64,000 nucleotides of DNA from Adhaeribacter pallidiroseus (GTDB lineage Bacteria > Bacteroidota > Bacteroidia > Cytophagales > Hymenobacteraceae): the NCBI RefSeq assembly GCF_003340495.1, contig NZ_QASA01000001.1, positions 5,642,001 to 5,706,000 of the forward strand, given 5' to 3'. Below, piece after piece: positions 17,291 through 36,482 of the stretch (within the stretch, counting starts at the first letter, position 1; every line of letters starts with the position of its first letter). The position numbers and the translations under genes were made by a program. The notes beneath the pieces were generated by a model, which was not told the DNA's origin, ran no database searches, and saw only the letters and a list, made by a program, of their open reading frames with translations.

Positions 17291-18445
17291 ATGTCATTAA
17301 GTAAAAAAGTATTAGACAAATATGATTTTTTTGTATTTGATTCCTTTAAGCTACATCCAAATCAATTAGCACTTTATAGAATACTTTATTGCGTATTTAC
17401 TTTTCTATTTTACGGAATTCCGAATTACGTTTGGATAGGAAAGAGTCCAGATTATTTATTTACTCCGCCTCATATTAGTTTAGCACATTTGTTTGATGGA
17501 TTCCCTGGTACATTATTTTTTACTGTACTAAATGTTCTTATTGTAGTTTTATATTTTGTACTATTGTTTGGTTGGAACACAAAAGTTACTTCCCTTTTAC
17601 TATTTTTTCTTCTCTTAATTGGCCAAAGCTTCTCTTTTTCTTTTGGTAAAATAGATCATACTATTATATGGTTAATTATACCGTTGATAATGGCCTTTTC
17701 TGGGTGGGGCAATGCTTATTCTGTTGATGCGGCTGTAAATAAAAAATCAGAGGTAAATGCTTGGGCAATTAGCTTGATGGCTTTATTGTTGGGTTTTGCT
17801 ATGTTTACTGCCAGTTTACCGAAAATTATGGAAGGTTGGCTATCCTTTGATTCGCAGGCTTCAAGATCGCATTTGCTTTTTAATTACTTGTATTGGGAAA
17901 GAAGACCATTGCTCTTAGAAGCCGTTTTACAAGTTAAAAGCCTGGTCTTTTGGGAGCTCTTTGATTATTTAACAGTAATATTCGAGTTTGGATTTTTATT
18001 AGCCATTTTAAATCCAACCATATTCAGACTATTTGTTATAGCTGCAGTTATATTTCATATCTCGGTTTTTTTAACTTTTGGAATATTATTCACAAGTAAT
18101 CTTTTGACCTACTTAATATTTATTAATTGGGCCATTTTTGATTCTTTATTCAAATCAAATAAATTAAATACTTTAGCTAGTAGAATATTTACTTTGAGGA
18201 ATTTAGTTGTATGTATAAGCTTAGTTTCGCTTTATAGCCTAATAGCTATTGTTTTAAATTCAAACTTTAAATTTCCTTCAGTTCTCCGGCTTTTTATAAG
18301 TACTTTTAACATTCATGTAGATAATCTTAATACTTACATACTTTTTACAATTTCCTTATTTATTACAATTGCGAGCGTTATAACTTATTTTCAAAAAAAC
18401 AGTATAGTTTACACGCAACAAAAAAGGTATAAAACTGTGAAGTAG
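17291..18445 (+). CDS. HTTM-like multi-pass membrane protein
   Basis: The protein has 384 residues with about eight to nine hydrophobic helices. The start (KLHPNQLALYRILYCVFTFLF) and the segments GKIDHTIIWLIIPLIMAFSGWGNAYSVD and ARSHLLFNYLYW-like loop resemble HTTM-domain proteins, the membrane family related to vitamin K-dependent gamma-carboxylase. A carboxylase activity cannot be claimed, because I cannot locate the catalytic lysine with confidence. It is paired with the preceding small anchored protein. The base composition is strongly AT-biased and may mark horizontal transfer. Confidence 0.65.
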   Translation: MSLSKKVLDKYDFFVFDSFKLHPNQLALYRILYCVFTFLFYGIPNYVWIGKSPDYLFTPPHISLAHLFDGFPGTLFFTVLNVLIVVLYFVLLFGWNTKVTSLLLFFLLLIGQSFSFSFGKIDHTIIWLIIPLIMAFSGWGNAYSVDAAVNKKSEVNAWAISLMALLLGFAMFTASLPKIMEGWLSFDSQASRSHLLFNYLYWERRPLLLEAVLQVKSLVFWELFDYLTVIFEFGFLLAILNPTIFRLFVIAAVIFHISVFLTFGILFTSNLLTYLIFINWAIFDSLFKSNKLNTLASRIFTLRNLVVCISLVSLYSLIAIVLNSNFKFPSVLRLFISTFNIHVDNLNTYILFTISLFITIASVITYFQKNSIVYTQQKRYKTVK

Positions 18446-18587: not shown

Positions 18588-19127
18588 TTATTTAACAACA
18601 CTTAAAGGCGGAATTTCGGATCCTTCCTTAACTACAACATTGCGTAAAATAATGGCTCCAGGATTAATCAAAACTCCTTTCTCTAAAATAGAACCACCTC
18701 CAATATAAGCATTTGGGTAAACAAGAACAAAATCATTTATTACTGCATCATGATCAACGCAAACGCCTGCATTAATAATTACATGTTTTCCAATGCAAGC
18801 TTTTGATTGCACCACTGCATTAGCCAGAATAACAGTTCCTTCTCCTAGTTCTACATCTTCAGCTACGTAAGCCGACGGATGAATCAAAGTGCCAAATTTA
18901 TGTTTTACTCTACCTGCAATCTTTTCGCGAACAACATTATTGCCAATACCAATTATTAATCGCGATTCAGAATGAAGTATTTCTTCATATGGTCTAACTA
19001 AGGCTGATTTATCATCTTTTAACTGATCATTAAAAAAAGCCTCTACTTTGCCGCCTTGCAGTTTAATTAAATCGGCCACTACTGTGGCATGGCCTCCTGC
19101 TCCATAGATAACATAAGAAGTTCTCAT
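18588..19127 (-). CDS. NeuD/PglD-like sugar O/N-acyltransferase
   Basis: The protein has 179 residues. An N-terminal nucleotide-sugar-binding fold (YGAGGHATVVADLI) is followed by a left-handed beta-helix of hexapeptide repeats from about residue 80 (LIHPSAYVAEDVELGEGTVI). His residues for catalysis are in INAGVCVDHDAVI. It probably adds an acetyl group to a sugar precursor of the exopolysaccharide. Its start overlaps the end of the MraY-like gene by four bases (ATGA), so the two are translationally coupled. It is the last gene of the polysaccharide locus. Confidence 0.86.
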   Translation of the reverse strand: MRTSYVIYGAGGHATVVADLIKLQGGKVEAFFNDQLKDDKSALVRPYEEILHSESRLIIGIGNNVVREKIAGRVKHKFGTLIHPSAYVAEDVELGEGTVILANAVVQSKACIGKHVIINAGVCVDHDAVINDFVLVYPNAYIGGGSILEKGVLINPGAIILRNVVVKEGSEIPPLSVVK

Positions 19128-19924
19128 GAAAGTGCTCTTTTGGGCATTAAGATCGGCTTGGTAATTACGTAGATCATAATCAAAGGCAAGGCCACCAGAA
19201 TGAAAATGTAAATAAAATCAAGCGAAGAAAACAGCACTAAGCAATTTACTAATAATTGAACAAGCGCATATAAAGCTGATACAATTAGGTGCGGTACTTT
19301 ACGCTCATTGGCCAGTATTTGATAAAAGTGCAAGCGGTGCGGTTCGAAAATGTTTTGCCTTAAAAGAAGCCGGTGTATGATTGTTAGTACCGTATCTACC
19401 CCATATACCGCCAGGAAGAGGATATAAGTTAAGGATTCTGTTTTTAGAATAAGCATGAGTAATAACGCAAGAATCCAAAAGCCAATGCTTACGCTACCTA
19501 CGTCTCCCGCAAAGCACTTCGCTTTCTTTCGAAAATTAAAAAAAAGAAAAACTATGGAGGCAATAATCGGGCAAATAATAAAGGCTGAGTCTGCGAAGCT
19601 AACGATGCGTTCGTTTACGTACAGGAGCGAGCACAAAATAATTAAGCTGTATAAACCTGTAATGCCATTAATACCATCCATAAAATTATAAGCATTGATA
19701 ATACCTATTATAAGAATGTATACAATAGGAATAAGCCAGATTGGTAATGATTGAAATGCATTTACAGAATATAGTAAAGCAGTAACAGCCAATAAGTGAA
19801 CCAGCAAGCGAACTCGGCTAGGTAAACTACTTATATCATCCCAAAAGCTTATCAAACTTATAAGCAGCATGCCAAAAAGCAGAAAAGCGGAAGCATCGTG
19901 GAAAAAGACAGCATACAAAATCAT
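19124..19924 (-). CDS. MraY/WecA-family sugar-1-phosphate transferase, N-terminus cut off by frameshift
   Basis: This family moves a sugar-1-phosphate onto undecaprenyl phosphate, the first membrane step of polysaccharide synthesis. The frame from ATG 19924 gives 266 residues and about eight helices. It retains the family motifs FWDD, NAYNFMDGINGI, FAGDVGSVSIG and HRLHFYQ. It lacks the first helix and the RSSH...RGGG block, which are encoded upstream in another frame (19939-20076). Adding one G to the G6 tract (C6 at 19947-19952 on the + strand) restores one 317-residue protein of normal length. Without frame restoration, the product from this internal ATG is probably inactive. Confidence 0.85.
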   Translation of the reverse strand: MILYAVFFHDASAFLLFGMLLISLISFWDDISSLPSRVRLLVHLLAVTALLYSVNAFQSLPIWLIPIVYILIIGIINAYNFMDGINGITGLYSLIILCSLLYVNERIVSFADSAFIICPIIASIVFLFFNFRKKAKCFAGDVGSVSIGFWILALLLMLILKTESLTYILFLAVYGVDTVLTIIHRLLLRQNIFEPHRLHFYQILANERKVPHLIVSALYALVQLLVNCLVLFSSLDFIYIFILVALPLIMIYVITKPILMPKRALS

Positions 19925-19938
19925 GGCGAAAGGATAAA

Positions 19939-20076
19939 CTATACCACCCCCCGAATAGTAATTGCCGTATGGGAACTACGATTATTAGGTTTATCAATAA
20001 TATTGAAACGATCCGCAATCCGGAAATAACCAAGTAATAAGATAAAAAGCAATAAGGTAATAAAGGCGTAAATCAT
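19939..20076 (-). pseudogene. Out-of-frame N-terminus of the MraY/WecA-family gene
   Basis: ATG at 20076 overlaps the stop of the preceding epimerase gene (ATGA), the usual coupled start. It encodes a transmembrane helix and then NIIDKPNNRSSHTAITIRG, the diagnostic N-terminal block of WecA/MraY-type enzymes. The frame then hits TAG at 19939-19941 just past the G6 tract. The continuation GGGIVYPFAMILY is in the frame of the 19124-19924 ORF, so the break is a single missing base. Confidence 0.88.
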
Positions 20077-20979: not shown

Positions 20980-22188
20980 TTATCTATGCTTATTATTTAA
21001 CAAAACCATTGCATTCAGGAAGTCATTTGCTAACTTATTTCGATTAAAATAATTTTGAGCCAAGCTTAAACTATTAGCCGCCATTTGGTTTCGGACTAAC
21101 GGATTGTTTACCAAATATTCTATGGCATCAGCAAAAATAGCCGGCTCATCTGGTAAAACAGTGATACCAGCGTTATGCTTCTGGAGTGTTTGTTTGATCC
21201 AGCCTTGCGTGGATTGAATTATTGGCACTCCTGCAGCAAAGGCATCGAACATTTTATTCGGAGAGCTTGTTTGCAAAACTTCTAAATTCTTAAATACAAC
21301 AAAAGCACCATATGCTTTTTGCAACCAACCTATTACTTGTGTTTTGGGAATGAGACCTAAGAAATGAACATTATCTAAAGCGTTTTTTACGCAAAACTCT
21401 TGTAAATACTTCTTTTCTGCTCCTTCCCCAATCATAACAATTTTAACCTGGTTGTTTCCCCTTCTTTTCAGTTCTAAGGCTGCCATAATTATTTGTTGGC
21501 AATCGTCCATTAACCCTAAGGAACCGGTATAAACAAAAACACATTTTTCTTGCGCCCATTCTGGCAATGTTAATTCAATGGGTTGTTGAAATAACTCTAC
21601 ATCGCTCGCATTAGGAATAACAAGCACGTTTGTCTCGGGATACCTGGTTTTTATAGAATCCCGCATACCATCTGAACAGGCAACAATAAGACTAGAAGCT
21701 CGGTAGCATATTTTTTCAAAGCCATAAGCTATGCTCTTCATCCAATTGCTTTTCATAAAGCCCAACTGAATAGCTCCTTCGGGCCAAAGATCTCGTACTT
21801 CAAATACCAAATTTTTTCCTCTGAGATAACGAGCCGTTAAGCCAGGCAAGCCAATTGTAATGGGGCCTGAAGAGGCAATTACTACATCACACTTTAATTT
21901 AAGACTATAAAAGATAGATATTAAGGAGAAGGCGCAAAAAGTAAAAAGTCTTTTAAGTACGTGGTGTTTATTTGATTGTAAAAGATTAATGGCAATAACT
22001 TGGATGCCTTCAAAATTATACTTTGATATTAATCCCTTACCTACAGGTAAGTCAGATTTGTCGTAAGGAGAGGTAACTACAGTAACCTCATGGCCTGCCG
22101 CAACCCATCTTTTAGTCATTTCATATACTCTGGTACTCCAACCTCCTTTTGGAGTACCAAAATATTGATAAAAGTAAACAATTTTCAT
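20980..22188 (-). CDS. WbuB-like glycosyltransferase, family 4
   Basis: The protein has 402 residues with two Rossmann-like domains (GT-B fold). The N-terminal part has GTPKGGWSTRVYEMTKRWVAAGHEVTVVTSPY. The donor-binding half has FVYTGSLGLMDDCQQII and the NKMFDAFAAGVPII segment with the conserved acidic region. It ends one base before the epimerase start, so it is in the same operon. The WbuB group adds an N-acetyl-6-deoxyhexosamine in O-antigen pathways; the same role here is inferred. Confidence 0.87.
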   Translation of the reverse strand: MKIVYFYQYFGTPKGGWSTRVYEMTKRWVAAGHEVTVVTSPYDKSDLPVGKGLISKYNFEGIQVIAINLLQSNKHHVLKRLFTFCAFSLISIFYSLKLKCDVVIASSGPITIGLPGLTARYLRGKNLVFEVRDLWPEGAIQLGFMKSNWMKSIAYGFEKICYRASSLIVACSDGMRDSIKTRYPETNVLVIPNASDVELFQQPIELTLPEWAQEKCVFVYTGSLGLMDDCQQIIMAALELKRRGNNQVKIVMIGEGAEKKYLQEFCVKNALDNVHFLGLIPKTQVIGWLQKAYGAFVVFKNLEVLQTSSPNKMFDAFAAGVPIIQSTQGWIKQTLQKHNAGITVLPDEPAIFADAIEYLVNNPLVRNQMAANSLSLAQNYFNRNKLANDFLNAMVLLNNKHR

Positions 22189-22377
22189 TTTGTATTAATA
22201 CCTACGTTTGAGTTATCAGTGTGCTAAGTGTTATATTGTTGAGTTATCAAATCAAAGCTGCAAAGTAGGTACACATTTATACTTAATTTTCTGCTTGCAA
22301 ATTTAACCTCAGCTCTGTAGTTGCAAGAAAGCTTACTTGTAAAAGGTAATTAATGATTGGGGTAACTTAACTTTAAG

Positions 22378-23481
22378 TTAAAGATTGTTATTGATGTTAG
22401 TAATATAGTTTTTAATTAAATAGTCCCACTCAAAATTCTGACTAACTCTTGTCGTATTTTCAATTAAGGAACTATAATTAGCTACAACTAAATCTAATTT
22501 TTCCTTTAGTTCTTCCATGGATTCATGGCTGCAAGAGTAACCGACTTCCCCATCTTTAAAGTAACCATCTACACCATCGCCTCTGGTATAAATAATTGGC
22601 AGTCCCTGCGATAAAGCTTCGATATAGACAACACCAAAAGTTTCGCGGTAAGAAAGCAGAACGAAAACATCGTTGTTTTTATAAATATCGAGTAACTGGT
22701 TTCTATCTCTTACTTCGCCGATGTAATTGATAACATTGCCATTTGTAACAGATTGGGAAATTTTATTAAACTCTAGGTTCAATAAATTTTTGCCTACAAT
22801 ATTCAGGACATATTTTCTATCGTTGTATTTTTTAATAAAATCGATTAATAAATCAAGCTTTTTTCTTTTAATAATCTGCCCTACAAAAAGAATGTTTACG
22901 GTATTTAGGTTTTGTGTTTCTTTATCTTTTTTATGTTTGTTGTTTAGCCAGAAGTCGTCAATTCCATTAGGTAATGGGAAATATTTTTTTTTATCAATCT
23001 GCGGAAATAAGTTTATGATTTTTTCCTTGTAGGCTGGAGACACAAAGAAAACCATATCAGCGGTAGTAAGTATTTTATTAGCGATAGATCGAAATATCCT
23101 GCTCTTTTTGATATAGACATCCACATCTGCACTTCTAACGGTTATCACTAATTTTTTCTTAGTGATTCTGCTCAACAAATAGGCCGGTATGCCATCGCTG
23201 ATTAAAGTATGAGCATGTATGTAAGTATACCCTTGCGTAAGTTTTTTCTTGTATGCTAACCTAATTACTTTTAAGGCTTTAGTAAAAAAGAAAATCTTAT
23301 CAGTCTTAGTAAAAATGTAATCTACCTCTAAGCCTTCAATGTGCTTCTCCGCTTTAAAGCTTTTATAAACTGGAATCAAAAAGATATCCGGTCGGTATTT
23401 TAAAATAGCATTCCGAAGATTATAATGAATTTTATTATCCAGAAAATAACTATTTATATGCAAAGCATTTTTAACGGACAT
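22378..23481 (-). CDS. Glycosyltransferase, family 4
   Basis: From the ATG at 23481 the protein has 367 residues. A TTG at 23511 would add ten residues, but ATG is the likelier start. The C-terminal GT-B domain shows VNILFVGQIIKRKKLDLLIDFIKKY and FVLLSYRETFGVVYIEALSQGLPII, which carries the EX7E donor-binding motif. The coding sequence is very AT-rich, as is common in exchangeable surface-polysaccharide genes. Acceptor and donor are unknown. Confidence 0.85.
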   Translation of the reverse strand: MSVKNALHINSYFLDNKIHYNLRNAILKYRPDIFLIPVYKSFKAEKHIEGLEVDYIFTKTDKIFFFTKALKVIRLAYKKKLTQGYTYIHAHTLISDGIPAYLLSRITKKKLVITVRSADVDVYIKKSRIFRSIANKILTTADMVFFVSPAYKEKIINLFPQIDKKKYFPLPNGIDDFWLNNKHKKDKETQNLNTVNILFVGQIIKRKKLDLLIDFIKKYNDRKYVLNIVGKNLLNLEFNKISQSVTNGNVINYIGEVRDRNQLLDIYKNNDVFVLLSYRETFGVVYIEALSQGLPIIYTRGDGVDGYFKDGEVGYSCSHESMEELKEKLDLVVANYSSLIENTTRVSQNFEWDYLIKNYITNINNNL

Positions 23482-23866
23482 GCTGCTTTTGTTTAAACTA
23501 AACTTTAACAAGGAATAAGATAATATTAAAATAAATTAGTGCTGTTTGGGCTTCGCAAATATTCAGCCAATTTGTTTATTCTTAATCAGGTATATAGATC
23601 TTTTTTAATAAATACTCTTGGGAGTCTTTAGGTTAGATAATGAATTATTCTAGACTTGTATAATTTATGCATATTTTAATAATATCACCGCAAAAGTAAA
23701 AATTTAATTCTAATTTATTGCTAGTTTTATAATATATATAATATATAAGCTTCTTTGTTTAAAAATGTATTGCTACTTCTTAGTGAGAATTTGTAATTTG
23801 TTTACCAGAATAAAGTTATATTGATGCCTTAAATTAAAGGCCTTGAGTGTTCTACCAAGTTCAAAG

Positions 23867-24072
23867 TAACGCGAGTTCAACAGAAGAAGTAATTCCAGAA
23901 TAGAGAATAAGAAGTTGTCCTCCCAAAAAAGTCTTCAGCACAGCAAGGCAATCAAATAAGTAAAGCATTTTGTTGCTTATCTGTTTTGTTCTGGATGCAA
24001 AGATTCTTTTTACGTGAACTTAGTAAAATACTTGTAACCTTCCCTATTTCTTATTAAAGTGAATTCGCGTTA
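23867..24072. mobile_element. Possible MITE or IS remnant with 13-bp terminal inverted repeats
   Basis: TAACGCGAGTTCA at 23867-23879 and TGAATTCGCGTTA at 24060-24072 are inverted copies with one mismatch, 206 bases apart overall. AAG directly flanks both ends and could be a 3-base target duplication. No transposase is encoded between them. The call rests on structure alone. Confidence 0.45.
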
Positions 24073-24138
24073 AAGTATATTCTTTTACCGGCTAGTTGAA
24101 ATTCTGGAGAATCGCCAAATTAGTAATAGTGATTAGAG

Positions 24139-24190
24139 TATCTTAAGTAAAAAGGCATGGTACATGTACCATGCCTTTTTACTTAAGATA
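24139..24190. terminator. Perfect 52-base palindrome, terminator of the alginate-lyase-like gene
   Basis: Bases 24139-24164 are exactly complementary to 24165-24190 (the arm includes AAGTAAAAAGGCATGGTACA). As RNA it forms a long GC-topped hairpin with U-rich flanks on both strands. It lies 37 bases past the minus-strand gene that stops at 24227. Confidence 0.75.
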
Positions 24191-24226
24191 ACTTTGTATT
24201 TTTGAAAATAGGAAATTTAAAAAACA

Positions 24227-25447
24227 CTAATAATAACGTGAAGTTAAAAGCTCCATGTAAGAACCAGATACAAAACGAGCATGACTTTCGGATAATATGG
24301 CTTGTACATTTAAGTCTTTGTATATGGCAGAAGCGGTTCTAGCAACTGGAGTAAAGTATTCTATTTTAAAATCTCCAATTTGGTCAAAATCCCAAACTTT
24401 TGTTCTGGTAACATAAGGCATCATCCATTGAAAGGCATTTTTCAAACTTTTGCCACTTGCCGAAGTATAATTCCATAAATTTATACCAACATTCTCCGCA
24501 CAACTAGCTAAGTTAAACCATCCTTTTAAATTTTTATTACAATAGGTCCAAGAATTAGTCCGGGCAAGCTCATATATTTGTTCCCCATTGGATTTGAACT
24601 GGCCATCTAGTCTATTGTAAGTCTGCAGCTCTATTATCGATTTTGCCAAAGCTTTATTTCCCGTAAACAAAGCATATGAAACAATCTGAAGATTATAAAA
24701 AGTACCGATATTATTAGGAGAAGCGCTAGCTAGTTTACCTGCTTCGCTATCCATTAACCAATTTAAATATTGATTAAACCACTCTTGTAAGGCTTCCTGA
24801 TTTTCAGAAGTCCAGGAGCTAGATCCAATTAGTAGTTGTACGCCATCTATAAGTTCTGGTAATTGCTCCGTATCAACTGTGCCAGTACCGTATACTCTGC
24901 TATCCCCTCTTATAAGTTGAGCATATTTTAAATTAGGGTTCATGCGCGTAGCACTATTTAAAAAAAATACTTTTAATAGTTCTGCTGCTTTACTTGCATA
25001 TTTTTCATCATCAGTAAAATAATAAGAAAGTCCTAATAGTCTAATGTCTTTACATAAATCTCGGATGTAAGTATTATCTTTTATATTACTTGCCTCCGGA
25101 TTAGACTGCCCATCTTTACGTATGTAAGGTAAGCCAGTAGCTGAGTTCGGGTCAGGCCACCAATAAGGAGCTAAACTTATATAATCATGTTTATCGCCGC
25201 TAGGCGGAGTAATTGATTTGTTTACTACAGAATAGGGCGTACGGATAAGCGATGGAGCAGTTGCTGATAAAAGTACTTTGAGCGCTGATAAACACTGCTC
25301 ATTTCCAGCATTTATTTTAAATTTATTTTGCATTAAAAGGTCAGCATTCATTAAAAAGGTATTAGGCCTTAATTGAGCCGTTCCTCTTAACGTAAAGATT
25401 AATAAGAATACTAATAGGATTGAGATGGATTGTGTAAATGTCTTCAT
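24227..25447 (-). CDS. Alginate-lyase-family secreted protein
   Basis: The preferred start at 25447 gives 406 residues beginning MKTFTQSISILL, a signal peptide ending near TAQ. An upstream in-frame start at 25498 adds 17 residues ahead of that signal and is unlikely. The alginate lyase fold (alpha/alpha barrel, PF05426 type) shows YISLAPYWWPDP, GLPYIRKDGQSNPE and ARTNSWTYCNKNL. The usual catalytic NNHG motif reads NNIGTFYNLQ, so the His is replaced by Ile. Located inside an exopolysaccharide locus, it may trim or release the polymer, or bind it without cutting. Confidence 0.82.
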   Translation of the reverse strand: MKTFTQSISILLVFLLIFTLRGTAQLRPNTFLMNADLLMQNKFKINAGNEQCLSALKVLLSATAPSLIRTPYSVVNKSITPPSGDKHDYISLAPYWWPDPNSATGLPYIRKDGQSNPEASNIKDNTYIRDLCKDIRLLGLSYYFTDDEKYASKAAELLKVFFLNSATRMNPNLKYAQLIRGDSRVYGTGTVDTEQLPELIDGVQLLIGSSSWTSENQEALQEWFNQYLNWLMDSEAGKLASASPNNIGTFYNLQIVSYALFTGNKALAKSIIELQTYNRLDGQFKSNGEQIYELARTNSWTYCNKNLKGWFNLASCAENVGINLWNYTSASGKSLKNAFQWMMPYVTRTKVWDFDQIGDFKIEYFTPVARTASAIYKDLNVQAILSESHARFVSGSYMELLTSRYY

Positions 25448-25771
25448 GCTTATTAGTTTGGATGTGGTATGTAATGCAAAAGTACAAATGAAACACAATA
25501 TTAGAAAAATGCGGTTGTGTTGTTCTATTGTATTATTAGCGTAAACAGGGTGCGTTTGTAATTTATGAAAGATCGTATAATCAGTTATGTAAGAATTTTA
25601 TACAGACGTAATAACGAGTAAAGAAGTATGTTCAACTTTTGACTTGACTGATTTAAGATAATAAAAAGAAGTATAAATATTGCTAATTGCCCGCTATATT
25701 TACCTCTATTGCTTTAATAGTGATACTCAACAAGGCAACTAGTAAATATAATAATTATGAGTTAAATGTTA

Positions 25772-25801
25772 ATAAAAAAGCCACCCTGAATTAGAGTAGC
25801 T
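25772..25801 (-). terminator. Terminator of the GT4 gene 25839-27020
   Basis: On the minus strand a 9-bp stem, AGCTACTCT with AGGGTGGCT (two G-U pairs), has a five-base loop. It runs directly into six T and lies 37 bases after the stop. Confidence 0.65.
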
Positions 25802-25838
25802 CTTATTTGGAAATTATGAGTAAACACATGAATAAACA

Positions 25839-27020
25839 TTAATTTCTGCTTTTACTATAAATGCTTTTTAATTTATTGGCATGAGCTTCAGGAGAATGAT
25901 TTACCTTTATTTGTGTTAGGCATTTTTCCGCTTTTACTTGAATAGATTCTTGATTTTTAAAGATTTCTATCAAACACTTCTCCAAACCGTTCTCTATAGC
26001 TTGTGCAATGGCGGCGCGATCTGCTGTTGTTGTATAAATGGCTTCTCCTAATCTGTTTTTAGGAATATTGATGATCCATCCTAAATCATTATTATTAATT
26101 TCAGGGAGAGCTCTTATATCTGTGGTAATAACTGGGCAACCACTTGCTTGCATCTCAAGAACAGAAAAACCATAAGTTTCTGCCCAGGTGGGCAGCAAAC
26201 CTATATGAGAGTTCTTCATCAATTCCAGTACCTGATTGTTTGGCAAAGAATTATAATATTGAATCCAAGAGCTGTTTTTAATTAACTCTTTGGCTTGGAT
26301 AACATCTTCTTCTGATTCTTTTTTTGCCCACCCGCTACGTGCAAAGCTACTCACAATGATGAGTTCAAAATCATATAGATGCCGTAATTTATTAAAAACA
26401 TTATACATCTCTACGCCACCTTTTCTATGAAATGCCCCACCAACAAACAAAAATCGAAGTTTGCCCGAGTAATTTAATTTTTTATCTTCTAACTGCTTTA
26501 CTAGCAGTTTCTGTGGTGGATGCGTAACGAATGTCTTCTTCTGAATAGTTTCTGCGTATTTTGGAAAGTGCTTTAAAAAATCTAACTGCATCCGTTTAGA
26601 GCACTCGGACAAAGGTAAAATGCCTAGGCAAGATTTATCAGCAATTGCATTTAAAGCATTGTCAACTTCTTTATCTTCTTTTAAGGCTGCATAATCTGGG
26701 TGACTCCCATGATGACAGTTAAGTGTTTGAGACAAACGAGGCACTAAAGTTTCACAAGAAGTAACCCAAGGTGTAAAAGAAGATAAACTGATACTGTTAA
26801 AAAAATGGTATACATCTATTTCTTTATTCTTCCATATTTCTTTAAACTTAAACTGATCGTCATACTTAATTTTAAAAATATTTACTTTTAGCTTTTTATT
26901 TATTACTTTTTTGAGAGTAAATAAATCCGTCTTGTTAGCATAGATGTATTTATTTTCAGCAATTTTTCCATTGATATTTCTTTGGTGCGGATAAAAATCA
27001 CCAACAATCCCTATATTCAT
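25839..27020 (-). CDS. Glycosyltransferase, family 4
   Basis: The protein has 393 residues. The N-terminal domain starts MNIGIVGDFYPHQRNINGKIAENKY. The C-terminal donor-binding domain has LRFLFVGGAFHRKGGVEMYNVF and GLLPTWAETYGFSVLEMQASGCPVITTDI, with the family EX7E motif (Glu in AETYGFSVLE). It follows the broken polymerase gene after a 1-kb spacer with transposase debris, and its own terminator lies just downstream. It may therefore be transcribed separately from the rest of the locus. Confidence 0.84.
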   Translation of the reverse strand: MNIGIVGDFYPHQRNINGKIAENKYIYANKTDLFTLKKVINKKLKVNIFKIKYDDQFKFKEIWKNKEIDVYHFFNSISLSSFTPWVTSCETLVPRLSQTLNCHHGSHPDYAALKEDKEVDNALNAIADKSCLGILPLSECSKRMQLDFLKHFPKYAETIQKKTFVTHPPQKLLVKQLEDKKLNYSGKLRFLFVGGAFHRKGGVEMYNVFNKLRHLYDFELIIVSSFARSGWAKKESEEDVIQAKELIKNSSWIQYYNSLPNNQVLELMKNSHIGLLPTWAETYGFSVLEMQASGCPVITTDIRALPEINNNDLGWIINIPKNRLGEAIYTTTADRAAIAQAIENGLEKCLIEIFKNQESIQVKAEKCLTQIKVNHSPEAHANKLKSIYSKSRN

Positions 27021-28009
27021 ACTTTAGGCAGAAGCTAATTGTTTATTAAAAAAGATTATGTGTTTATTTTAAAAGATTAGAAGTGTGCATTTTACACAAA
27101 CAATGGTAGTTGTTATTTGACAAAGTCAAAATTAATAATAAAAAACAATATTCAATAAGAGATAGTGTGTTAGATATTAAAAGACGAAGTGTTACAGACA
27201 GAATTATCAGCGTTTAGGCATTTCAGAAATTATAGCTAAGTAGCCCATAGATCGACTGCATATTGTGTTCTTTCATGGTCTTTGCTTTAGCATCTTGCAT
27301 TTAGGATCTGGGTCAAGGTTCTTTCCAACATCCATAATATAGGCAGAATTTCAAATTTCTTTGTATCGTCTGTTTTCAAAGCTAGTAAGCAGCATCATCC
27401 TACAACCTTTTACAAATTTCTGCGGATCTTCTCCCGGTAGTCGCCATCTAGTCTGCTGGCACATCTTTCGCCCACAAAGCTATTGAATAAATTCCTGAGC
27501 GGCATCTTTGCTCCAACGATAATAATTATTATAAGCTGTTTGCTGGCAGACATGAATTTATGGTCAAGACAGCATCCAGTCTTAACCATATAAAAGATGC
27601 ATTTATTATTTTTTTAATCTGCTTGCGGGTAGCAGCTATCTTGCTTCCCAGCTAAACAAACAAGTAATCATTTTTATCAGTTCTCAGTTATCTTTGCTTA
27701 TATCACTTGAATAGCTTTTTCTTTTTAGCAGTAATCACCTAACTTTTAAATAAATAGTTGGTCAGATAACTTTCTTAACCAAAGGTGATTTTTTCCCCAT
27801 TTAAAACATATTTTTAAATGAAAGCGAAGTATTCCATAAAACTTGTAAGTTTACTATAAACCTAGCGGTAACATTTCACAGTTTTTAATTGCTGATGTTA
27901 GATGACTTTCAAATATAGAGCACAACACGGAAGTTAAACTAAGTTTAGTAATGTAATATTTAAAAAATGATTGGTGTAGAAGCAATGAATAATTCCATAT
28001 TCGTGTAGT
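27021..28009. other. Non-coding spacer with transposase debris
   Basis: This 1-kb gap holds the decayed IS5-like transposase at about 27207-27600. Bases 27600-28009 are AT-rich with no recognised gene. There is a short inverted pair, AATCACCT and AGGTGATT, near 27733-27792. Confidence 0.5.
27207..27600 (-). pseudogene. Decayed IS5-family transposase remnant
   Basis: Read on the minus strand in shifting frames, the first part gives VKTGC and then AYNNYYRWSKDAAQEFIQ. This resembles the N-terminal helix-turn-helix region of IS5-type transposases. The last part gives FEILPILWMLERTLTQILN, then SKDHERTQYAVDL, then GYLAIISEMPKR and a stop. That matches the C-terminal block of the same family (normally ...RWVVERTFAWL...SKDYERT...). 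Stops and frameshifts interrupt it, and the catalytic middle is missing. Confidence 0.55.
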
Positions 28010-29026
28010 CTATATTGTCAGCTCGCGTTGTTTTGCAGCAGTATATAGCATGTGGCTTTTACGCATCATAATGGAGCTGTAAGCTATTAAAAGCCCATAC
28101 CACAACCAAAAACTTCCCTCAACTATAATAGTACTTGGTCCTACTGCCATAATAGGAAAAACTAATATCATGGCTTTAAACATCGCGGGCAGAGCATTGG
28201 AAATAACATTCTGGTACGAGCTGAATTTTCTAAAGGATATATAGAGGAAGTAAAGCATTCCTAGTAGAATAACAATTCCGTATTCCATTAGTATTTGTAA
28301 AAAGAAATTATGCGGAGGAAGTCCATCCAAAGGAAAAATGGAAGATCCTGGTCCGGTACCAAATCCTAAATGATCCAAGGCATAATTAAGGCACGTGGTG
28401 TAAATATTAACGCGAGTATCATCCGAAGATGATTCATTTTTTTCTACAACCAAATTTAACTTATCAGTTATAGTGTCTAAGATAGATGTATCAATTACTA
28501 GTACACTGATAAATAGTACAAATAGAACAGCTACAATCTTAATGATATTCTGTTTGTAATTATTATGGGAAGTTAATGAAAATACTATAAAAAGTGCAGT
28601 GCCTAAAGCAACGGCTGCTATACCTGCTCTGGAATAAGAACTTATAAGTAAGTACAAACTCATTCCCAAACTTATCCAGTTAAGAACATACCATTTTAAA
28701 GGTCGATAAGGTTTAATTAACTTGCCTAGTAAAAGAAGAGTTGTCAAGGAGTTGAAAAAAGCATAATTGTTCTGATTTGCAAACATTGCTCGTGGAGCAA
28801 GAAAGCCAATGCGCATTGCTAATCTCTCTGTTTTGCCACCAACCTCACTAGCTATCAAATACTTTTGGGTAACTACTTCATAGAAACCAATGAGGTTGAC
28901 AAATAAAGCCGCTACAATCCAGATATTTATAACCGTATTTATTCTGTCCTCAGTATTAACATACCTAATAACTAACCAAGTTAAGGCAATACCGGTTTGT
29001 AAAATGCCAAATTCTTTAATGGCCAA
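28010..29026 (-). CDS. O-antigen ligase/polymerase (Wzy-like), N-terminus cut off by frameshift
   Basis: The uninterrupted frame from TTG 29026 gives 338 residues with about nine helices. It has the O-antigen ligase-type loop SYSRAG and the signature PPHNFFLQILMEYGI. The open frame continues upstream without a start to 29139. There a T7 tract (A7 at 29139-29145 on the + strand) breaks continuity with an N-terminal segment starting at ATG 29295. One extra T restores a 428-residue protein of normal polymerase length. The role would be joining repeat units of the polymer. As sequenced, the first helices are missing. Confidence 0.8.
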   Translation of the reverse strand: MAIKEFGILQTGIALTWLVIRYVNTEDRINTVINIWIVAALFVNLIGFYEVVTQKYLIASEVGGKTERLAMRIGFLAPRAMFANQNNYAFFNSLTTLLLLGKLIKPYRPLKWYVLNWISLGMSLYLLISSYSRAGIAAVALGTALFIVFSLTSHNNYKQNIIKIVAVLFVLFISVLVIDTSILDTITDKLNLVVEKNESSSDDTRVNIYTTCLNYALDHLGFGTGPGSSIFPLDGLPPHNFFLQILMEYGIVILLGMLYFLYISFRKFSSYQNVISNALPAMFKAMILVFPIMAVGPSTIIVEGSFWLWYGLLIAYSSIMMRKSHMLYTAAKQRELTI

Positions 29027-29136
29027 GCTTGTATCCGGGGCCCAGATAATGCTAACTAAACCTAGTAATAAAAAGATTACACTGAATTTATAATAACTTT
29101 CTAGGAAAGGATCTCCCCAGCCTATCCTGGATAAAA

Positions 29137-29295
29137 TTAAAAAAAGCCTACAAAGCCGAATAATCTTAAAGGATACAGTTGAAAAAAGCCTACATCTAGC
29201 TTAATTAAAGGAGTACCAAAAAAAACACTCGCCACCGCGCAGTAAGTAATGAGCAATCCCCAGTCCCATGTAGTAGCTTTACTATCCTTTATCAT
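29137..29295 (-). pseudogene. Out-of-frame N-terminus of the Wzy-like gene
   Basis: ATG at 29295 starts MIKDSKATTWDWGLLITYC, giving one and a half hydrophobic helices. The frame ends at TAA (29137-29139) within the T7 tract after GFVGFF. The sequence beyond the tract, LILSRIGWGDPFLESYYKF, continues in the frame of the 28010-29026 ORF. That points to a single-base deletion rather than an independent small gene. Confidence 0.82.
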
Positions 29296-29402
29296 CTTGC
29301 CTTATTTTACTGTAGCGCTAAGCCGTATTTATTTACGAACTAAAATTTAGAAATTCATCGTGAAAGCCGCTCATGAACTAGATTCCTATCATTATTAGTT
29401 CA

Positions 29403-30320
29403 TCAACTTTTAAAAGAGTGCCTTAAATTATTGAGATGAAGTTTTAAAGAAAGCCATAAACCTTGCCTATTCAGGTTCATCTTTTTTAATAAATTATAAT
29501 TTATTCCTCTGCCTTGGTACACATTCCCATTTATATCAATGTAGATATACCGGTTCTGATAACATTTAACGGCTTCCTTTAAATTCTTATCGTTACTAGT
29601 TTGCAGCAGATTTTGCAAAAAAGGTGAAAAAATAAAACCTGTTTCCCGATTCACCTTTTGAGTAACCATGTTAACCGAATCAATGTGGTAATAAGACATG
29701 GTTTTATTCAGCCAAACACTTTTTTTGCTTTGCCAGAGGCACCGGGTCCAAGTATCCATATCACCCCCACGTCTAAATTCTTTTTCCGGAAACTTACCAG
29801 CCTTGAGCAGTACTTCTCGCTTCATGGCAACGGCTCCGGTCCAGATAGGCTGTGGTCCTTTTAAAAAATCAATTAGAGTAAAGGTTCTGCTGGTGTGTGC
29901 TTTATTTGCTAAAGAGAAGGCGTCTAATCTTTTTTCATTTCCTTTGGTCCAATACCAACCCCAACTAATTATCTCTACTTCTTTATCAGCTTTAATTGTT
30001 TCGGCTAAAGTAGCTAACAAGTCTAATTCCCAGGCATCATCGGCATCTAAAAAGCAAATCCAATCATACTTAGCATTGTCTATACCCACGTTTCGAGCAG
30101 CATATCCTCCCGGACCAGGGGTATCCCGACGAAATCTGCTAATTCTGTTATCCTGAAATCCAGCTAATTTTTCGGAGGATCCATCGGATGAGGCATCATC
30201 CACCAGAATAACTTCAAAATTAGGATAAGTCTGTTTTAATACTGAATCTACCGACCTATCCAAGTGGGGCAACTTATTATGTACAGGAATTACAACGGAG
30301 AAAAAAGGATTGGCACTCAT
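29403..30320 (-). CDS. Glycosyltransferase, family 2
   Basis: The protein has 305 residues. The GT-A fold opens with FSVVIPVHNKLPHLDRSVDSVL. The nucleotide-binding acidic motif is VDDASSDGS (residues about 40-48), the metal-binding DxD lies in CFLDADDAW, and an acceptor-side block is RRGGDMDTWTR. It is a cytoplasmic or membrane-associated enzyme adding one sugar of the repeat unit. It follows the other GT2 gene in the same operon. Confidence 0.88.
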   Translation of the reverse strand: MSANPFFSVVIPVHNKLPHLDRSVDSVLKQTYPNFEVILVDDASSDGSSEKLAGFQDNRISRFRRDTPGPGGYAARNVGIDNAKYDWICFLDADDAWELDLLATLAETIKADKEVEIISWGWYWTKGNEKRLDAFSLANKAHTSRTFTLIDFLKGPQPIWTGAVAMKREVLLKAGKFPEKEFRRGGDMDTWTRCLWQSKKSVWLNKTMSYYHIDSVNMVTQKVNRETGFIFSPFLQNLLQTSNDKNLKEAVKCYQNRYIYIDINGNVYQGRGINYNLLKKMNLNRQGLWLSLKLHLNNLRHSFKS

Positions 30321-30426
30321 AACAATTTTAATACAGGTGTGGGAATAAAGTACTGTTTGTTAATAACATGCAGTATCTTAAGTTTTTTAATTTTGTAGCT
30401 AAACGGCACCTAAAATATAACCTTAG

Positions 30427-31314
30427 TTAAGCATCATACATGGGTTTAGCCCCGTGAGCTAATCGGAGTTCCTCGTAAGCCCGGGTAACTTTTATATTGT
30501 ACCTGGTTAAAAAAACAAGAAGCTTTAATCTCATATTAAGTTGTTTGCCTCTTGAAAAAATATGTTTAAATTCTTTTACAGGAGGACGCATCTCATAAAA
30601 GAAGTTTAAATACTTATCTACGGTGCTTCTTTTAACCATCTCTGCTTTCCCAGAAACTACTCGTCGTGCTTTCTTGGTAATTTGCTTTAATTCTTTTCTG
30701 GCCGGATGATTTATAATTACATCTGGAGCATACCCTATTTTAAAATTATTAGCTAAAGCCCTTTCTCCCCATTCAAAGTCGCCACCAGAATACATATTTT
30801 GGTTAAATGGGCCTATAACATCTATAACCTTCTTTTTGGTAATCATATTAGCTGTTACAGACCTCCCTTTTTTTACGTTTTCATCTTGTCGGAAAGCGTA
30901 TACAATTTCGTAGGCTTCTGCTAAAGTGTAGTGTGTACCTGAGAAAAATAATTCTACTTTTCCCCCAATTCTATCGTACTGCAGATTCTTTTTAAAAAAT
31001 CGAACAGCGTTCATCAACCAATTAGGATCAGGAATACAATCAGAATCTGTAAATCCAAATATTTCACCTTTTGCTAAACTTATTCCTTTGTTTCGGGCAG
31101 CATAAGAACCCGAGGTACTCTCGGTGGTTATTACCATATTAGCTGGTAAAAAGTACCCGGTTGGTATCTCATCTTTAGGATCATTATTAACAATAATTAC
31201 CTCAAATGATTCTTTTGGATAGGTTTGTTTATCTAAAGCATCAATGCAGTATGATAGTCTTTTCCAATCACGGTAAGTAGGAACTATTACGGAGATAAAA
31301 GGTTCGGAAGACAT
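30427..31314 (-). CDS. Glycosyltransferase, family 2
   Basis: The protein has 295 residues with an N-terminal GT-A domain: ISVIVPTYRDWKRLSYCIDAL, the acidic motif IVNNDPKDE and the DxD motif in FGFTDSDCIPDPNW. GGDFEWGERA is the likely catalytic-base segment. The C-terminal part is basic and may bind the membrane surface. It differs clearly in sequence from its neighbour at 29403-30320, so the two probably add different sugars. Confidence 0.87.
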   Translation of the reverse strand: MSSEPFISVIVPTYRDWKRLSYCIDALDKQTYPKESFEVIIVNNDPKDEIPTGYFLPANMVITTESTSGSYAARNKGISLAKGEIFGFTDSDCIPDPNWLMNAVRFFKKNLQYDRIGGKVELFFSGTHYTLAEAYEIVYAFRQDENVKKGRSVTANMITKKKVIDVIGPFNQNMYSGGDFEWGERALANNFKIGYAPDVIINHPARKELKQITKKARRVVSGKAEMVKRSTVDKYLNFFYEMRPPVKEFKHIFSRGKQLNMRLKLLVFLTRYNIKVTRAYEELRLAHGAKPMYDA

Positions 31315-31596
31315 TAGAACTAAAAATTTGATTATTGATAATAACGCTTATCAGTACCTAAAAAAGAAGTATCATTAAAATAGTTTTCTCGCATGGATAA
31401 ACCTTTTTTGAAAACGATGCACAATTAGAAATATTTAATAAATGTAATATCCAAAAGAGAATTGATAATGATGGCTAATAAGTTGCTTGAGCAATTGTTT
31501 TGAAATATATACTCGGATTTAAAAATATTAACTTCTGATCTACAAGTAATCTGAAATTTATTAAAAAAATTTCTTTATGTAAATTCTCAATTAATC

Positions 31597-33057
31597 TCAA
31601 ATAGCTACTTGTTTTTTATTCCGATTTCTAAATTGTTGAATCTGTTTTGTTAATTCGGAACTCATAAATAACCAAACTACTCCAGCATAGCTTAGGGCCA
31701 TCACTAGCGCGCATAATATAAAATGTACATTAGCGGTGTAGAGGGAATAAGATACTGCAAAAGAAATGGCGGTAGCTACTAGCGGCGCTTTTAAATTAAA
31801 AAATAGCTCTAAAATTGACACGTTTAACAGCTTTTTAAGATAATATTGCGCTATTATTACTTCTAAAACTTTATTCACGAGGTAGCCTAAAGCAGCACCT
31901 ACAATTCCGTATTTATAAATGCCTAGCGATATTAAAGGTGCATAAAGACATACGGCTTTAAATAGTTGCAAATTCATCTCTAATTTTGGCCGGCCAAGTC
32001 CTCTTATCAGAGAACTATGGCTACTCACCATCATGTGCACCATAACAGCCAAGGATAATATTTTTAAGGGCAATATAGTATCGTGCCACTTGGCGCCAAA
32101 CATGGTTATAATAAATGGCTCACCCAGCACTACTAAAAATAACATTATGGGGTAGATAACCAAGCTATTATATTTAATAACATTCAAGTAGTAGCGTTTA
32201 AGCGAATGAATGTCGTCTTGTTTTTTGCCATAAACCGGATACATTACTTTGTTCATGATATTCATCAACTGGCTTCTAAAGGTGTCGGTAAGCACAAAGG
32301 CAAGCGTGTAAGTTCCCAAAGCCGAAGCGCTTAAAAGTTTACCAATTAGCAAATAGTCAATTTTTTGGATCAGGTTATTAAATAAGTTCGTGCCTGTGGT
32401 GTATACACCAAAACCAAAAATATCTTTAAACGCTTGCTTACTCCAAATAAACTTAGGATACCAACCCGTTGCTCTAAAGTAGAGTGGCATTGCCACAATA
32501 AAAGTTGCCACAGAATTAAATACCAAAGCCCATACTCCTAAACCAAAATAGGCTAATATTAAAGCTAAAACCCCCGAAAAAATGGTAGAAACGTTGCTGA
32601 TAAAGGCTAGTTTCTTGAAATCCATTTTCTTAGTTAATTGTGCGCTATGCACTAAATTTATTGGGCTAGACAATACTCCTAAACTTAGGACCGGAATAAT
32701 GTTTCGTAATAATGGTTCTTTATAAAATATGGCAGCTAGCGGAGCTACTGCAAATAAAATGATTAAGTATATTCCTACCGACCATATGACTCCGGTCCAG
32801 AAAGAAGTATGGTAATGTTCTTCGGTTAATTGTTCATCTTTACGTTGTACAAGAGCTGAAGCAATGCCCAGGTCATTAAAAACCTGAACAAAGCTAGTAA
32901 AGACTGATGCCATGCCCACAATACCAAATTGGTTGGGGAATAAAAGTCTTGCTAAGATAAGTTTAATAGCAAAATCAAAAGATCTATTTACAAGAAGTTG
33001 AACAACATTCCAAAAAACGCCTGTTACTACTTTCCCTTTCAGGTTTTGAGAATCCAT
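31597..33057 (-). CDS. Polysaccharide flippase (Wzx/WzxC-like)
   Basis: The protein has 486 residues and about twelve to fourteen helices of the MOP exporter superfamily. The N-terminus contains FWNVVQLLVNRSFDFAIKLI and LARLLFPNQFGIVGMASVF, the typical opening of WzxC-like lipid-linked oligosaccharide translocases. It would flip the undecaprenyl-linked repeat unit to the periplasmic face for polymerisation. It is the third gene of the locus, after the export protein and the kinase, with a 259-base spacer before it. Confidence 0.9.
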   Translation of the reverse strand: MDSQNLKGKVVTGVFWNVVQLLVNRSFDFAIKLILARLLFPNQFGIVGMASVFTSFVQVFNDLGIASALVQRKDEQLTEEHYHTSFWTGVIWSVGIYLIILFAVAPLAAIFYKEPLLRNIIPVLSLGVLSSPINLVHSAQLTKKMDFKKLAFISNVSTIFSGVLALILAYFGLGVWALVFNSVATFIVAMPLYFRATGWYPKFIWSKQAFKDIFGFGVYTTGTNLFNNLIQKIDYLLIGKLLSASALGTYTLAFVLTDTFRSQLMNIMNKVMYPVYGKKQDDIHSLKRYYLNVIKYNSLVIYPIMLFLVVLGEPFIITMFGAKWHDTILPLKILSLAVMVHMMVSSHSSLIRGLGRPKLEMNLQLFKAVCLYAPLISLGIYKYGIVGAALGYLVNKVLEVIIAQYYLKKLLNVSILELFFNLKAPLVATAISFAVSYSLYTANVHFILCALVMALSYAGVVWLFMSSELTKQIQQFRNRNKKQVAI

Positions 33058-33248
33058 TTTTTAATAATAGATGTTATTAGAATGGCTGAATTACAATTCT
33101 AAATAATTACTAGAAAGTGCCAGCAACTTTATATGATATTGCAGAAGCAAACTTATAACCAATTGTTTGAGTTCTTAACGGCAAGTTAGAAATACGTATT
33201 TTTAATCTTAAAAATACGTAGGATTAACTATTCACTGGTACCATTTAT

Positions 33249-33293
33249 TAACCTAATGAGCTACTTAATTTTAAAAAATAGCTTATTAGGTTA
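33249..33293. repeat. Inverted repeat between the kinase and flippase genes
   Basis: TAACCTAATGAGCTA (33249-33263) pairs with TAGCTTATTAGGTTA (33279-33293), with one mismatch that is a G-U pair on the + strand. A T-run follows on the + strand only. For the minus-strand operon it could be a weak attenuator or an RNA-processing site. Confidence 0.5.
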
Positions 33294-33316
33294 GTTTTTT
33301 GTTAATTCTGTATCAC

Positions 33317-35659
33317 CTAAGCATTAGCTCGGTTTTTATATTTCATTTTCCAAGAAACTTTCTTCTCTTCGGTATAACCGTACCCATAGCTTCCATATCC
33401 TTTTAATTTTTTTGCGTCATTCATTACCATCATAAGATTTTTGAGTTTATTGTTTTTATAAATATCCTCAATTATGTTTACCTGATCTTTAAAGGTATAA
33501 TTGTACCGCATCAAATAAATAGTGGAGTCGATGTAAGGGGAGAGAGATAACGCATCTGCTACTTGCCCAACTGGGGATGTATCTAATACAATATGATCAA
33601 ATCGCTCTCTTAATTCTTCCATCATTTCATTAACTTTTGGCGATAAAATTAGTTCTGCTGGGTTGTAAGGAGTAGGACCAGATCCAATAGCATATAGCCC
33701 AGAAACAGTTTGCAAGGAAACTAATATATCATCAATACTAGATACTTCCGAAGCTAAATAGTTGCTGATGCCTTTTTCGTTCGGAATACCCAAATTTTGA
33801 GTAAGCCCCGATTTTCTAAGATCAAAATCTAACACGGCCACTTTTTTACCGGCTAAAGCTAAACTTGATGCTAAGTTTAAGCTGAAAAATGTTTTCCCTT
33901 CACCCGCCATGCTGGAGGTAACTAATATAACTTTGTTATCCTGCCCGAGAGTGGCTAATTGTAAATTAGCTCTGTTATGACGGAACAATTCAGCCACCAA
34001 GCTTCTGCTTTTATCGGTAACTACCAAAGTTTCTCTGGTGTCGTTATGCGAAATTTCACCTAACAGCGGAGCAGCGGTAATTAATTCAACGTCTTTAAAT
34101 TCTTGAACTCTCTCGTTAAAGCTGTCTTTGATAAAGACAAAGGCAAAAGGAAGTCCTACTCCAACAACAAATGCCAGGAAGAATATTAAAGGCTTTTTGG
34201 GTTTTACAGGATCATCGCCCGCAGCGGGAGCATCAATCACCCGGGATATAGATACGGAGGCCGCTAAAGACAACGCCGATTCTTCGCGCTTTTGTAACAG
34301 ATACTGATAAAGCGCTTGTTTGATACTTTGCTGGCGGTTAATCTCTAATAAATCTCGCTCCATAGAAGGCACTTGCTGTATTCTGGATGTATTTTGAGCC
34401 AGGTTAGAGCGCAACTGATTACGCGCAATAACTAATCCGCCCTTAATATTTTTTAAATTTTCCAGCATAGTAGTCTGCAGATTAGCTAATTGCTCGTTTA
34501 TATTTTGCACTAATGGGTTATCTGGTTGGGTAGTACGCAGCATACGTTGCCGCTCCAGTTGCAAAGCATTGAATCTGGTAACAAGTTCTAGTAAAGTAGG
34601 GTCTTTAATGTTTAAGTTACTTGGGGCTAATCCGTATCGGCTACCTGATCTTCTTAAGTAATTTTCTAAAGACGTTAATACATTTATCTGAACATCCCAG
34701 TCTGTTAACGACTTGGTGTATTCGCTGGCATTGTTAAGTGATAACCGTGCTTCTGCCTGAACATCGGTTAAAGCATGCTGACTTCTGTATTTTTCTACAT
34801 TTTTTTCAACATCAGATAACTCTCCGGTAAGATCTCTTAGGCGAGCATCAATAAACTGAACAGTATTGGTAGCTATACTATTTTTATCTTCTATTGCTTC
34901 TTTATTGTATACCTCAATTAGTTTATTCACGATGTCCTTTCCTTTTTCCGGAACTGCATCTGTTAAGGTAATAGAAAGCACATTGGTTTCTTTCGTAATG
35001 GGGGCAACTTCTAGTTTGCTGTTATAAGAATTTGCCAGTTTAGTTAAGTTGTTAAACTTTACTTCAATATATTTAATATCGCTGGCCGGAGCAATAAGGT
35101 TGGGTTGTACTGTAAAAGTAGCATAAGGTTTTACAATTTCTTGTCCGATCTTATAAGCTTTAACTCCAAAAGCATCTTTTAAAGTAAATGTATTCTTATC
35201 TTCTAAATTAATGGCAATCCGTTGATTGTCATACGCTAACGGATTAAACTGACGTACGGCTACTTTAATTGGTAGATAATTAACGTAAACCTCTTTTGCT
35301 TTAATTGGGCCTTCTACAAAGTAACTGGCATTCATAGAGAGTTCGGAAAGAACTCGGTACATCAGACTTTTAGCTTTTAAAACTTCAATCTCATTATGAA
35401 TGTTTTTAGTAGATGCAAATATATCCAGATCGTTGAAAGCATCGGCTTTAGCAGCGCCCGGATCTTTTTTATCATCCTTAATCTGGATAGTGCTTACTAT
35501 ACTGTATTCAGGGGTAGCATACAACAAATAAACATATGCTAAGCCCATGCAGAGTAGAAGCGATAGCACAAACAAGTGCCAGTATTTTAAATATTTACTT
35601 ACAACGTTCTTTAAACTTACGGGCTCTGTCTCAAATGGAAGAACTTCTCTATTAACCAT
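33317..35659 (-). CDS. Wzc-like tyrosine autokinase, chain-length regulator
   Basis: This inner-membrane protein couples polymerisation with export and is controlled by tyrosine phosphorylation. It has 780 residues. A Wzz domain with a transmembrane helix (about 28-50) is followed by a periplasmic coiled-coil/GNVR region (about 255-450). A second transmembrane helix lies near 490-512. The cytoplasmic BY-kinase domain has Walker A SSMAGEGKTF (about 583-592), Walker A' VAVLDFDLRKS and Walker B HIVLDTSPVG. The tail has a tyrosine cluster, YGSYGYGY. It starts 10 bases after the export lipoprotein gene. Confidence 0.94.
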   Translation of the reverse strand: MVNREVLPFETEPVSLKNVVSKYLKYWHLFVLSLLLCMGLAYVYLLYATPEYSIVSTIQIKDDKKDPGAAKADAFNDLDIFASTKNIHNEIEVLKAKSLMYRVLSELSMNASYFVEGPIKAKEVYVNYLPIKVAVRQFNPLAYDNQRIAINLEDKNTFTLKDAFGVKAYKIGQEIVKPYATFTVQPNLIAPASDIKYIEVKFNNLTKLANSYNSKLEVAPITKETNVLSITLTDAVPEKGKDIVNKLIEVYNKEAIEDKNSIATNTVQFIDARLRDLTGELSDVEKNVEKYRSQHALTDVQAEARLSLNNASEYTKSLTDWDVQINVLTSLENYLRRSGSRYGLAPSNLNIKDPTLLELVTRFNALQLERQRMLRTTQPDNPLVQNINEQLANLQTTMLENLKNIKGGLVIARNQLRSNLAQNTSRIQQVPSMERDLLEINRQQSIKQALYQYLLQKREESALSLAASVSISRVIDAPAAGDDPVKPKKPLIFFLAFVVGVGLPFAFVFIKDSFNERVQEFKDVELITAAPLLGEISHNDTRETLVVTDKSRSLVAELFRHNRANLQLATLGQDNKVILVTSSMAGEGKTFFSLNLASSLALAGKKVAVLDFDLRKSGLTQNLGIPNEKGISNYLASEVSSIDDILVSLQTVSGLYAIGSGPTPYNPAELILSPKVNEMMEELRERFDHIVLDTSPVGQVADALSLSPYIDSTIYLMRYNYTFKDQVNIIEDIYKNNKLKNLMMVMNDAKKLKGYGSYGYGYTEEKKVSWKMKYKNRANA

Positions 35660-35669
35660 GGTTTACTAA

Positions 35670-36482
35670 TTAAAAAAATCTTGTTATAATAAGGGTAGCA
35701 ATAGATATAACACCAACTACTACCGATGTATAGGTTCTATTGGTATTTGCTTGCGCAGCTCTGTATCGGCTTTTATCTGGTTCTACGTAAACTACATCAT
35801 TCTGCTGAAGATAGAAGTAAGGTGAGTTAAGCGTTTCTTTATCATTTAAGTTAATTCGAGTAATGGTGCGCTTACCTTCTTTTTCCCGGATTATCAAAAC
35901 ATTTTCCCGTTTGCCGTAAACAGTCATGTCCCCAGCCATACCCAAAGCTTCTAAAATGTTAATTTTTTCGGTAGGTACTGCTAAAGTGGAAGGTCTGCTA
36001 ACTTCACCAATAACAGTAACTCTAAAGTTTAAATAACGAATATTAACAATTGGTTCCCCTTTGATGTATCTTTTAAGCTCGTTTATCATTTTCTTAGTAG
36101 CTTCTTCCTTGGAAAGCCCGGCTAATTTAACTTGGCCTAATACCGGGAAACTGATAAACCCATTTTTATCTACGAGATAACCTTCTTTAATAGCATTACC
36201 GTTGATATTGTTAGCATTATTAAGGTTTGGTAATAGAATGCCGCTATTAAACAAGGCATTTGATTCTGGATTTAAGGTGCTCACTGTAATAGAAAGAAGA
36301 TCATCCGGTTGAATCTTAGGATCCAGGGTATTAACTATATTCACGCTTTGGTCGCTGTTTGCTTGTAAATCACTGAAGTAAACCAAATCCCGACCGGTTT
36401 TACACGAAAACGTAAAAAGAAGCAGTATCACATAAAATATTTTATACATTCTGCTGGTAATCTTCTTATTGGTGTAGAGCAT
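35670..36482 (-). CDS. Wza-like polysaccharide export lipoprotein
   Basis: This is an outer-membrane channel component for polysaccharide export. It has 270 residues. A lipobox LLFTFSC gives a lipidated Cys (Cys27 from this start, Cys16 from the ATG at 36449, which is an equally good start). A poly-export domain (about 55-150) contains IQPDDLLSITV and GFISFPVLGQVKL. An SLBB-like domain (about 158-205) has VTVIGEVSRPSTLAVP. A C-terminal hydrophobic helix ends TLIITRFF. It is the first gene of the locus, and no gene lies upstream for 1 kb. Confidence 0.9.
   Translation of the reverse strand: MLYTNKKITSRMYKIFYVILLLFTFSCKTGRDLVYFSDLQANSDQSVNIVNTLDPKIQPDDLLSITVSTLNPESNALFNSGILLPNLNNANNINGNAIKEGYLVDKNGFISFPVLGQVKLAGLSKEEATKKMINELKRYIKGEPIVNIRYLNFRVTVIGEVSRPSTLAVPTEKINILEALGMAGDMTVYGKRENVLIIREKEGKRTITRINLNDKETLNSPYFYLQQNDVVYVEPDKSRYRAAQANTNRTYTSVVVGVISIATLIITRFF

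Follow-up and report, generated by a model that had tools for sequence, protein, structure and literature searches.

The question raised by the transferase locus

When a gene for an initiating sugar-phosphate transferase changes frame by one base within a run of six G, should it be regarded as a switch, as a fixed loss or as an error of the assembly? The question is raised by an MraY/WecA-type transferase gene (PF00953) split by such a frame change on the minus strand at 19124-20076 of the window, by which we mean the whole 64,000-nucleotide stretch of Adhaeribacter pallidiroseus DNA that was analysed. The preliminary description treated these three explanations as equal, whereas an assembly error is clearly favoured by our analysis. 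Specifically, we consider it quite likely that the apparent break is an assembly artefact, namely a one-base under-call of a homopolymer. The underlying gene is probably an ordinary, intact member of the MraY/WecA family (a WbpL/WecA-like polyprenyl-phosphate sugar-1-phosphate transferase) in a Wzx/Wzy cluster.

Structure of the split gene

The first frame begins at ATG 20076, runs for 45 codons through NRSSHTAITIRG, has NRSSHTAITIRGVV as its C-terminal end and stops at a TAG (19941-19939). The second frame, GGGIVYPFAMILYAVFF, is open from the G6 run (19947-19952; C6 on the plus strand) and begins GGGIVYPFA; counted from its internal ATG at 19924, it encodes 266 amino acids and extends to 19124. 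The ATG at 20076 overlaps the stop codon of an upstream epimerase-family gene as ATGA (20073-20076), and the transferase stop overlaps the ATG of the next gene downstream. The features of the locus, in window positions, are as follows:

18588..19127, minus strand: PglD/NeuD-like sugar acetyltransferase, downstream, with an ATGA overlapping start
19124..19924, minus strand: C-terminal transferase piece, 266 aa, with the whole PF00953 domain and a frame open upstream to the G run; 89.5% identity to the sister species
19947..19952, minus strand: G6 run, the frame-change point by sequence reading
19939..20076, minus strand: N-terminal transferase piece, 45 codons, with the first membrane segment and the IIDKPNNRSSHTAITIRG block, ending at TAG; 95% identity to the sister species over 41 codons
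20073..20978, minus strand: NAD-dependent epimerase/dehydratase-family gene, upstream, with an ATGA overlap with the transferase
20980..36482, minus strand: remainder of the Wzx/Wzy-type polysaccharide cluster, with genes for glycosyltransferases, Wzx, Wzc and Wza; the sister species conserves most of it
28010..29191, minus strand: wzy-like polymerase gene belonging to this cluster, its frame broken in a homopolymer that lies within 29129-29151

The PF00953 domain sits whole in the downstream piece (3.3e-25, 89.4 bits), which exceeds the Pfam Glycos_transf_4 gathering score (cut-off 27), and the sister-species protein reaches 86.2 bits against the same cut-off of 27. The MraY/WecA-type identity proposed earlier is thus supported, and our reading agrees that the gene is split at the G6 run and that the downstream piece resumes at GGGI in another frame. 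The N-terminal block R(S/A)SH...RGGG, whose RSSH...RG portion had been called diagnostic, is present in the upstream piece but lies in a different frame from the PF00953 domain in this assembly. Chance arrangement of open reading frames does not account for a broken frame in a gene that is otherwise well conserved. This transferase is present as one copy in its own assembly (G000; 6.43 Mb, three contigs).

Two further proteins border the cluster. A hydrophobic protein of 384 amino acids (17291-18445, plus strand) with zero Pfam matches adjoins it, and a good counterpart was not found in the syntenic region of the sister species. Just upstream of the polysaccharide cluster lies a predicted secreted, repeat-rich protein of 3234 amino acids (39672-49376, minus strand).

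Homologues retain the N-terminal block

The congeneric sister species (G004) carries an intact orthologue of 317 amino acids, the very length that had been predicted for the normal enzyme, and it shares the N-terminal block and the coupled ATGA start. Gene order around the transferase is also the same, including the coupled neighbours. The full homologue set comprised 83 sequences (80 public-genome loci, two further whole-genome hits and the sister), and in every one of them R(S/A)SH...RGGG lies upstream of the site that corresponds to ATG 19924. It is in frame with the domain in the sister and the other homologues, bar one MAG with a separate break, and a split at the G6 run is common to no other homologue among those examined. 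Homologues starting at the internal ATG, which the preliminary description had named as evidence that would overturn its interpretation, are therefore absent from this set. We rejected a start at ATG 19924 because its product would be without a region that no homologue dispenses with. The exceptional MAG homologue (L075, Dysgonamonadaceae; about 4950-5010) has its own, separate frameshift, which lies immediately downstream of RGGG and not in a G run.

As judged from sequence divergence, both transferase pieces are under strong purifying selection, the same as their neighbours. The dN/dS against the sister is 0.028 for the N-terminal piece and 0.049 for the C-terminal piece, compared with 0.014-0.094 for the aligned neighbours (epimerase 0.069, Wzc 0.030, Wza 0.045, PglD-like 0.088), although dS is saturated or nearly so and the low values therefore say only that any loss is recent.

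One-base faults recur at homopolymers

The assembly itself was assessed by comparing 1.2 Mb of its sequence with 1.2 Mb of G004 and collecting open reading frames that match the other genome in two frames; the comparison covered about 509 kb of coding sequence matched between the two. Within this sequence, the own assembly has eight clean one-base frame changes, and all eight are deletions inside homopolymers:

19947-19952 of the window, G6 run: the transferase, one-base deletion relative to G004
29129-29151 of the window, T run: wzy-like polymerase, intact in the sister at 431 aa
C1:5586729-5586749, A run: polA, whose frame ends ENEKIKK and resumes KIGQNIKY
C1:5782074-5782096: MRJP-family gene, one-base homopolymer deletion
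C1:1401211-1401231, G6 run: GH95 gene, one-base homopolymer deletion
C1:1452258-1452279: putative SusC-like protein of 1024 aa (named by appearance), one-base homopolymer deletion
about C1:1144200, G run coding KGGGC: IscA-like gene, one-base deletion, whole in the sister
C1:1044665 region: murC-ftsQ boundary, A run one base shorter, two frames fused

The faults thus recur in unrelated genes, conserved single-copy ones included. polA is single-copy in the own assembly and occupies two open frames of 465 and 515 codons, such that its open frame encodes 515 amino acids compared with 963-984 in three relatives, where the gene is whole. The IscA-like break falls at a G run for Gly-Gly-Gly, which is the same context as the RGGG of the transferase. 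Only in the own assembly do murC and the 259-aa gene that follows it (named ftsQ by gene order) form one 726-codon frame; the two are separate in all four relatives (G001, G003, G004 and G006). We rejected the alternative that murC is broken in the sister, given that this five-genome check reveals the own assembly as the odd one, with the genes fused. The wzy-like break is probably the same kind of error as that in the transferase. Furthermore, the sister's only chorismate synthase gives two overlapping matches, with the split at a G6 run (G004 C3:3968158-3969188).

We counted neither a 10-base deletion found in a SusD-like gene (C1:1404031) nor a few candidates with poor alignments, since none of these is a clean one-base change in a homopolymer. 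The GH95 G-run break adjoins this SusD-like deletion (C1:1401211-1404034), and that locus may hold a real lesion.

The G run is probably not a specialized tract

Among the 81 homologues measured, the longest G run at RGGG is two bases in 52, three in 3, four in 13, five in 12 and six in the sister alone; runs of seven or more occur in 0 of the 81. Codon choice for RGGG varies freely between homologues, and the Gly codons of the sister are interrupted by C. We read the run as a by-product of four G-rich codons and not as a conserved tract. Genome-wide, exact G6 runs number 448 (one in roughly 14 kb) and exact G7 runs 53; among the runs listed, none exceeds eight and every longer one is G8. This G6:G7 ratio is close to those of six congeners and only slightly above the relatives' ratios. 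A genome-wide collapse of G7 to G6 was therefore rejected, and the errors are sporadic rather than global.

The preliminary description proposed that slippage changes the length of the G tract, turning the transferase on or off and with it the polymer. A homopolymer near the 5′ end of an initiating transferase is a plausible place for such phase variation. In meningococcus, the variable homopolymer tracts are predominantly those of at least eight bases, although a gene with C5/C6 variation is mentioned, such that short G/C runs can vary (PMC5084427). However, the tract in this assembly is six G, short of the length of about eight or more that characterizes contingency loci; it is commonplace, it is not kept among homologues (2-6 G), and the same loss is seen in housekeeping genes. 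Nothing marks the G6 run as a contingency tract, and we regard phase variation of the transferase as quite improbable. The broader proposal, that the RGGG G run and the wzy-like T run together make exopolysaccharide reversibly phase-variable in an environmental member of the Bacteroidota, is a shade less probable again.

Error, loss or tolerated break

Sequencing error is favoured because the same one-base faults recur at other base runs, including those of housekeeping genes. That polA, the Fe-S assembly factor, murC/ftsQ and the chorismate synthase of the sister have all truly been lost alike is much less likely than residual homopolymer deletions in two assemblies. If so, the reads would show a run longer than six G, and the assembly would rest on long reads without adequate polishing. 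Certain observations must be set against this explanation. The G6:G7 ratio gives no sign that G7 runs have collapsed on a large scale, homopolymers are also where genuine slippage mutations tend to occur, and this one polysaccharide cluster holds two of the eight breaks, as it would if the locus were truly decaying. Nevertheless, indel errors of long reads are for the most part associated with homopolymers, the majority being false deletions in the assembly studied (PMC12007338), and the eight deletions strengthen what had been offered earlier as only one option.

A real and recent loss-of-function frameshift might instead have been fixed in this strain, for example during laboratory subculture, leaving the cluster without its own initiating enzyme. 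The broken wzy-like gene of the same cluster and the redundant initiators encoded in the genome are in keeping with such a loss, as is a B. fragilis strain whose large capsule was lost, probably because a stop interrupts a putative initiating transferase (PMC3090145). However, the transferase gene has zero other lesions and a dN/dS as low as that of its neighbours, and a loss specific to polysaccharide synthesis fails to explain the observations because polA, murC/ftsQ and the IscA-like gene carry the same type of lesion. We therefore consider a fixed loss unlikely. Even more doubtful, to the point of being barely credible, is a real but tolerated break, with enough active enzyme made through reinitiation at ATG 19924, slippage during transcription or −1 slippage of the ribosome on GGG. 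Direct reading of the sequence indicates that GGG in the P site could shift back by one base within the run and pair again, and the downstream frame does have an ATG, but an in-frame X_XXY_YYZ heptamer is absent, the ATG 19924 product is without the N-terminal block kept in 83 of 83 homologues, and no homologue is split at the G6 run.

Consequences for the polysaccharide and for genome annotation

Enzymes of the PF00953 family transfer a sugar-1-phosphate onto polyprenyl phosphate, which is the start of repeat-unit synthesis, and the intact enzyme would perform this step in the Wzx/Wzy cluster. The genome also encodes MraY and, 38 kb away, a WecA-like protein of 340 aa, together with three PF02397 (WbaP-type) transferases. 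Given this second WecA-like enzyme and the three WbaP-type initiators, it is not clear that the polymer would be abolished even if the loss were real, and the earlier portrayal of the gene as an on/off switch for the capsule was overstated. If the loss is real, it amounts to a polysaccharide defect of one strain.

The more general message is one of caution. Homopolymers can give rise to numerous false pseudogenes in genomes that are nearly complete, and here there are eight in about 0.5 Mb of the coding sequence compared. Gly-run motifs such as RGGG and KGGGC readily yield G runs, and such runs may wrongly be taken for switches of phase variation.

Comparison with known systems

The siaD capsule gene of Neisseria meningitidis, which undergoes phase variation by slipped-strand mispairing, resembles the current locus in having a homopolymer in a polysaccharide gene. 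In contrast, the tract examined here is not conserved and was observed only at a length of six bases, and siaD encodes a polysialyltransferase rather than an initiating transferase. A closer likeness is to the WecA/WbpL-type polyprenyl-phosphate HexNAc-1-phosphate transferases, given the PF00953 score above cut-off, the length of 317 amino acids (in the sister) and the position after an epimerase/dehydratase gene and before a PglD/NeuD-like gene within a Wzx/Wzy cluster, although the frame is broken in this assembly and the score is well below the cut-off of the WecA model. The break itself most resembles the long-read homopolymer indel errors described in the Kastor paper (PMC12007338), in that one-base homopolymer deletions are found across unrelated genes, including housekeeping genes.
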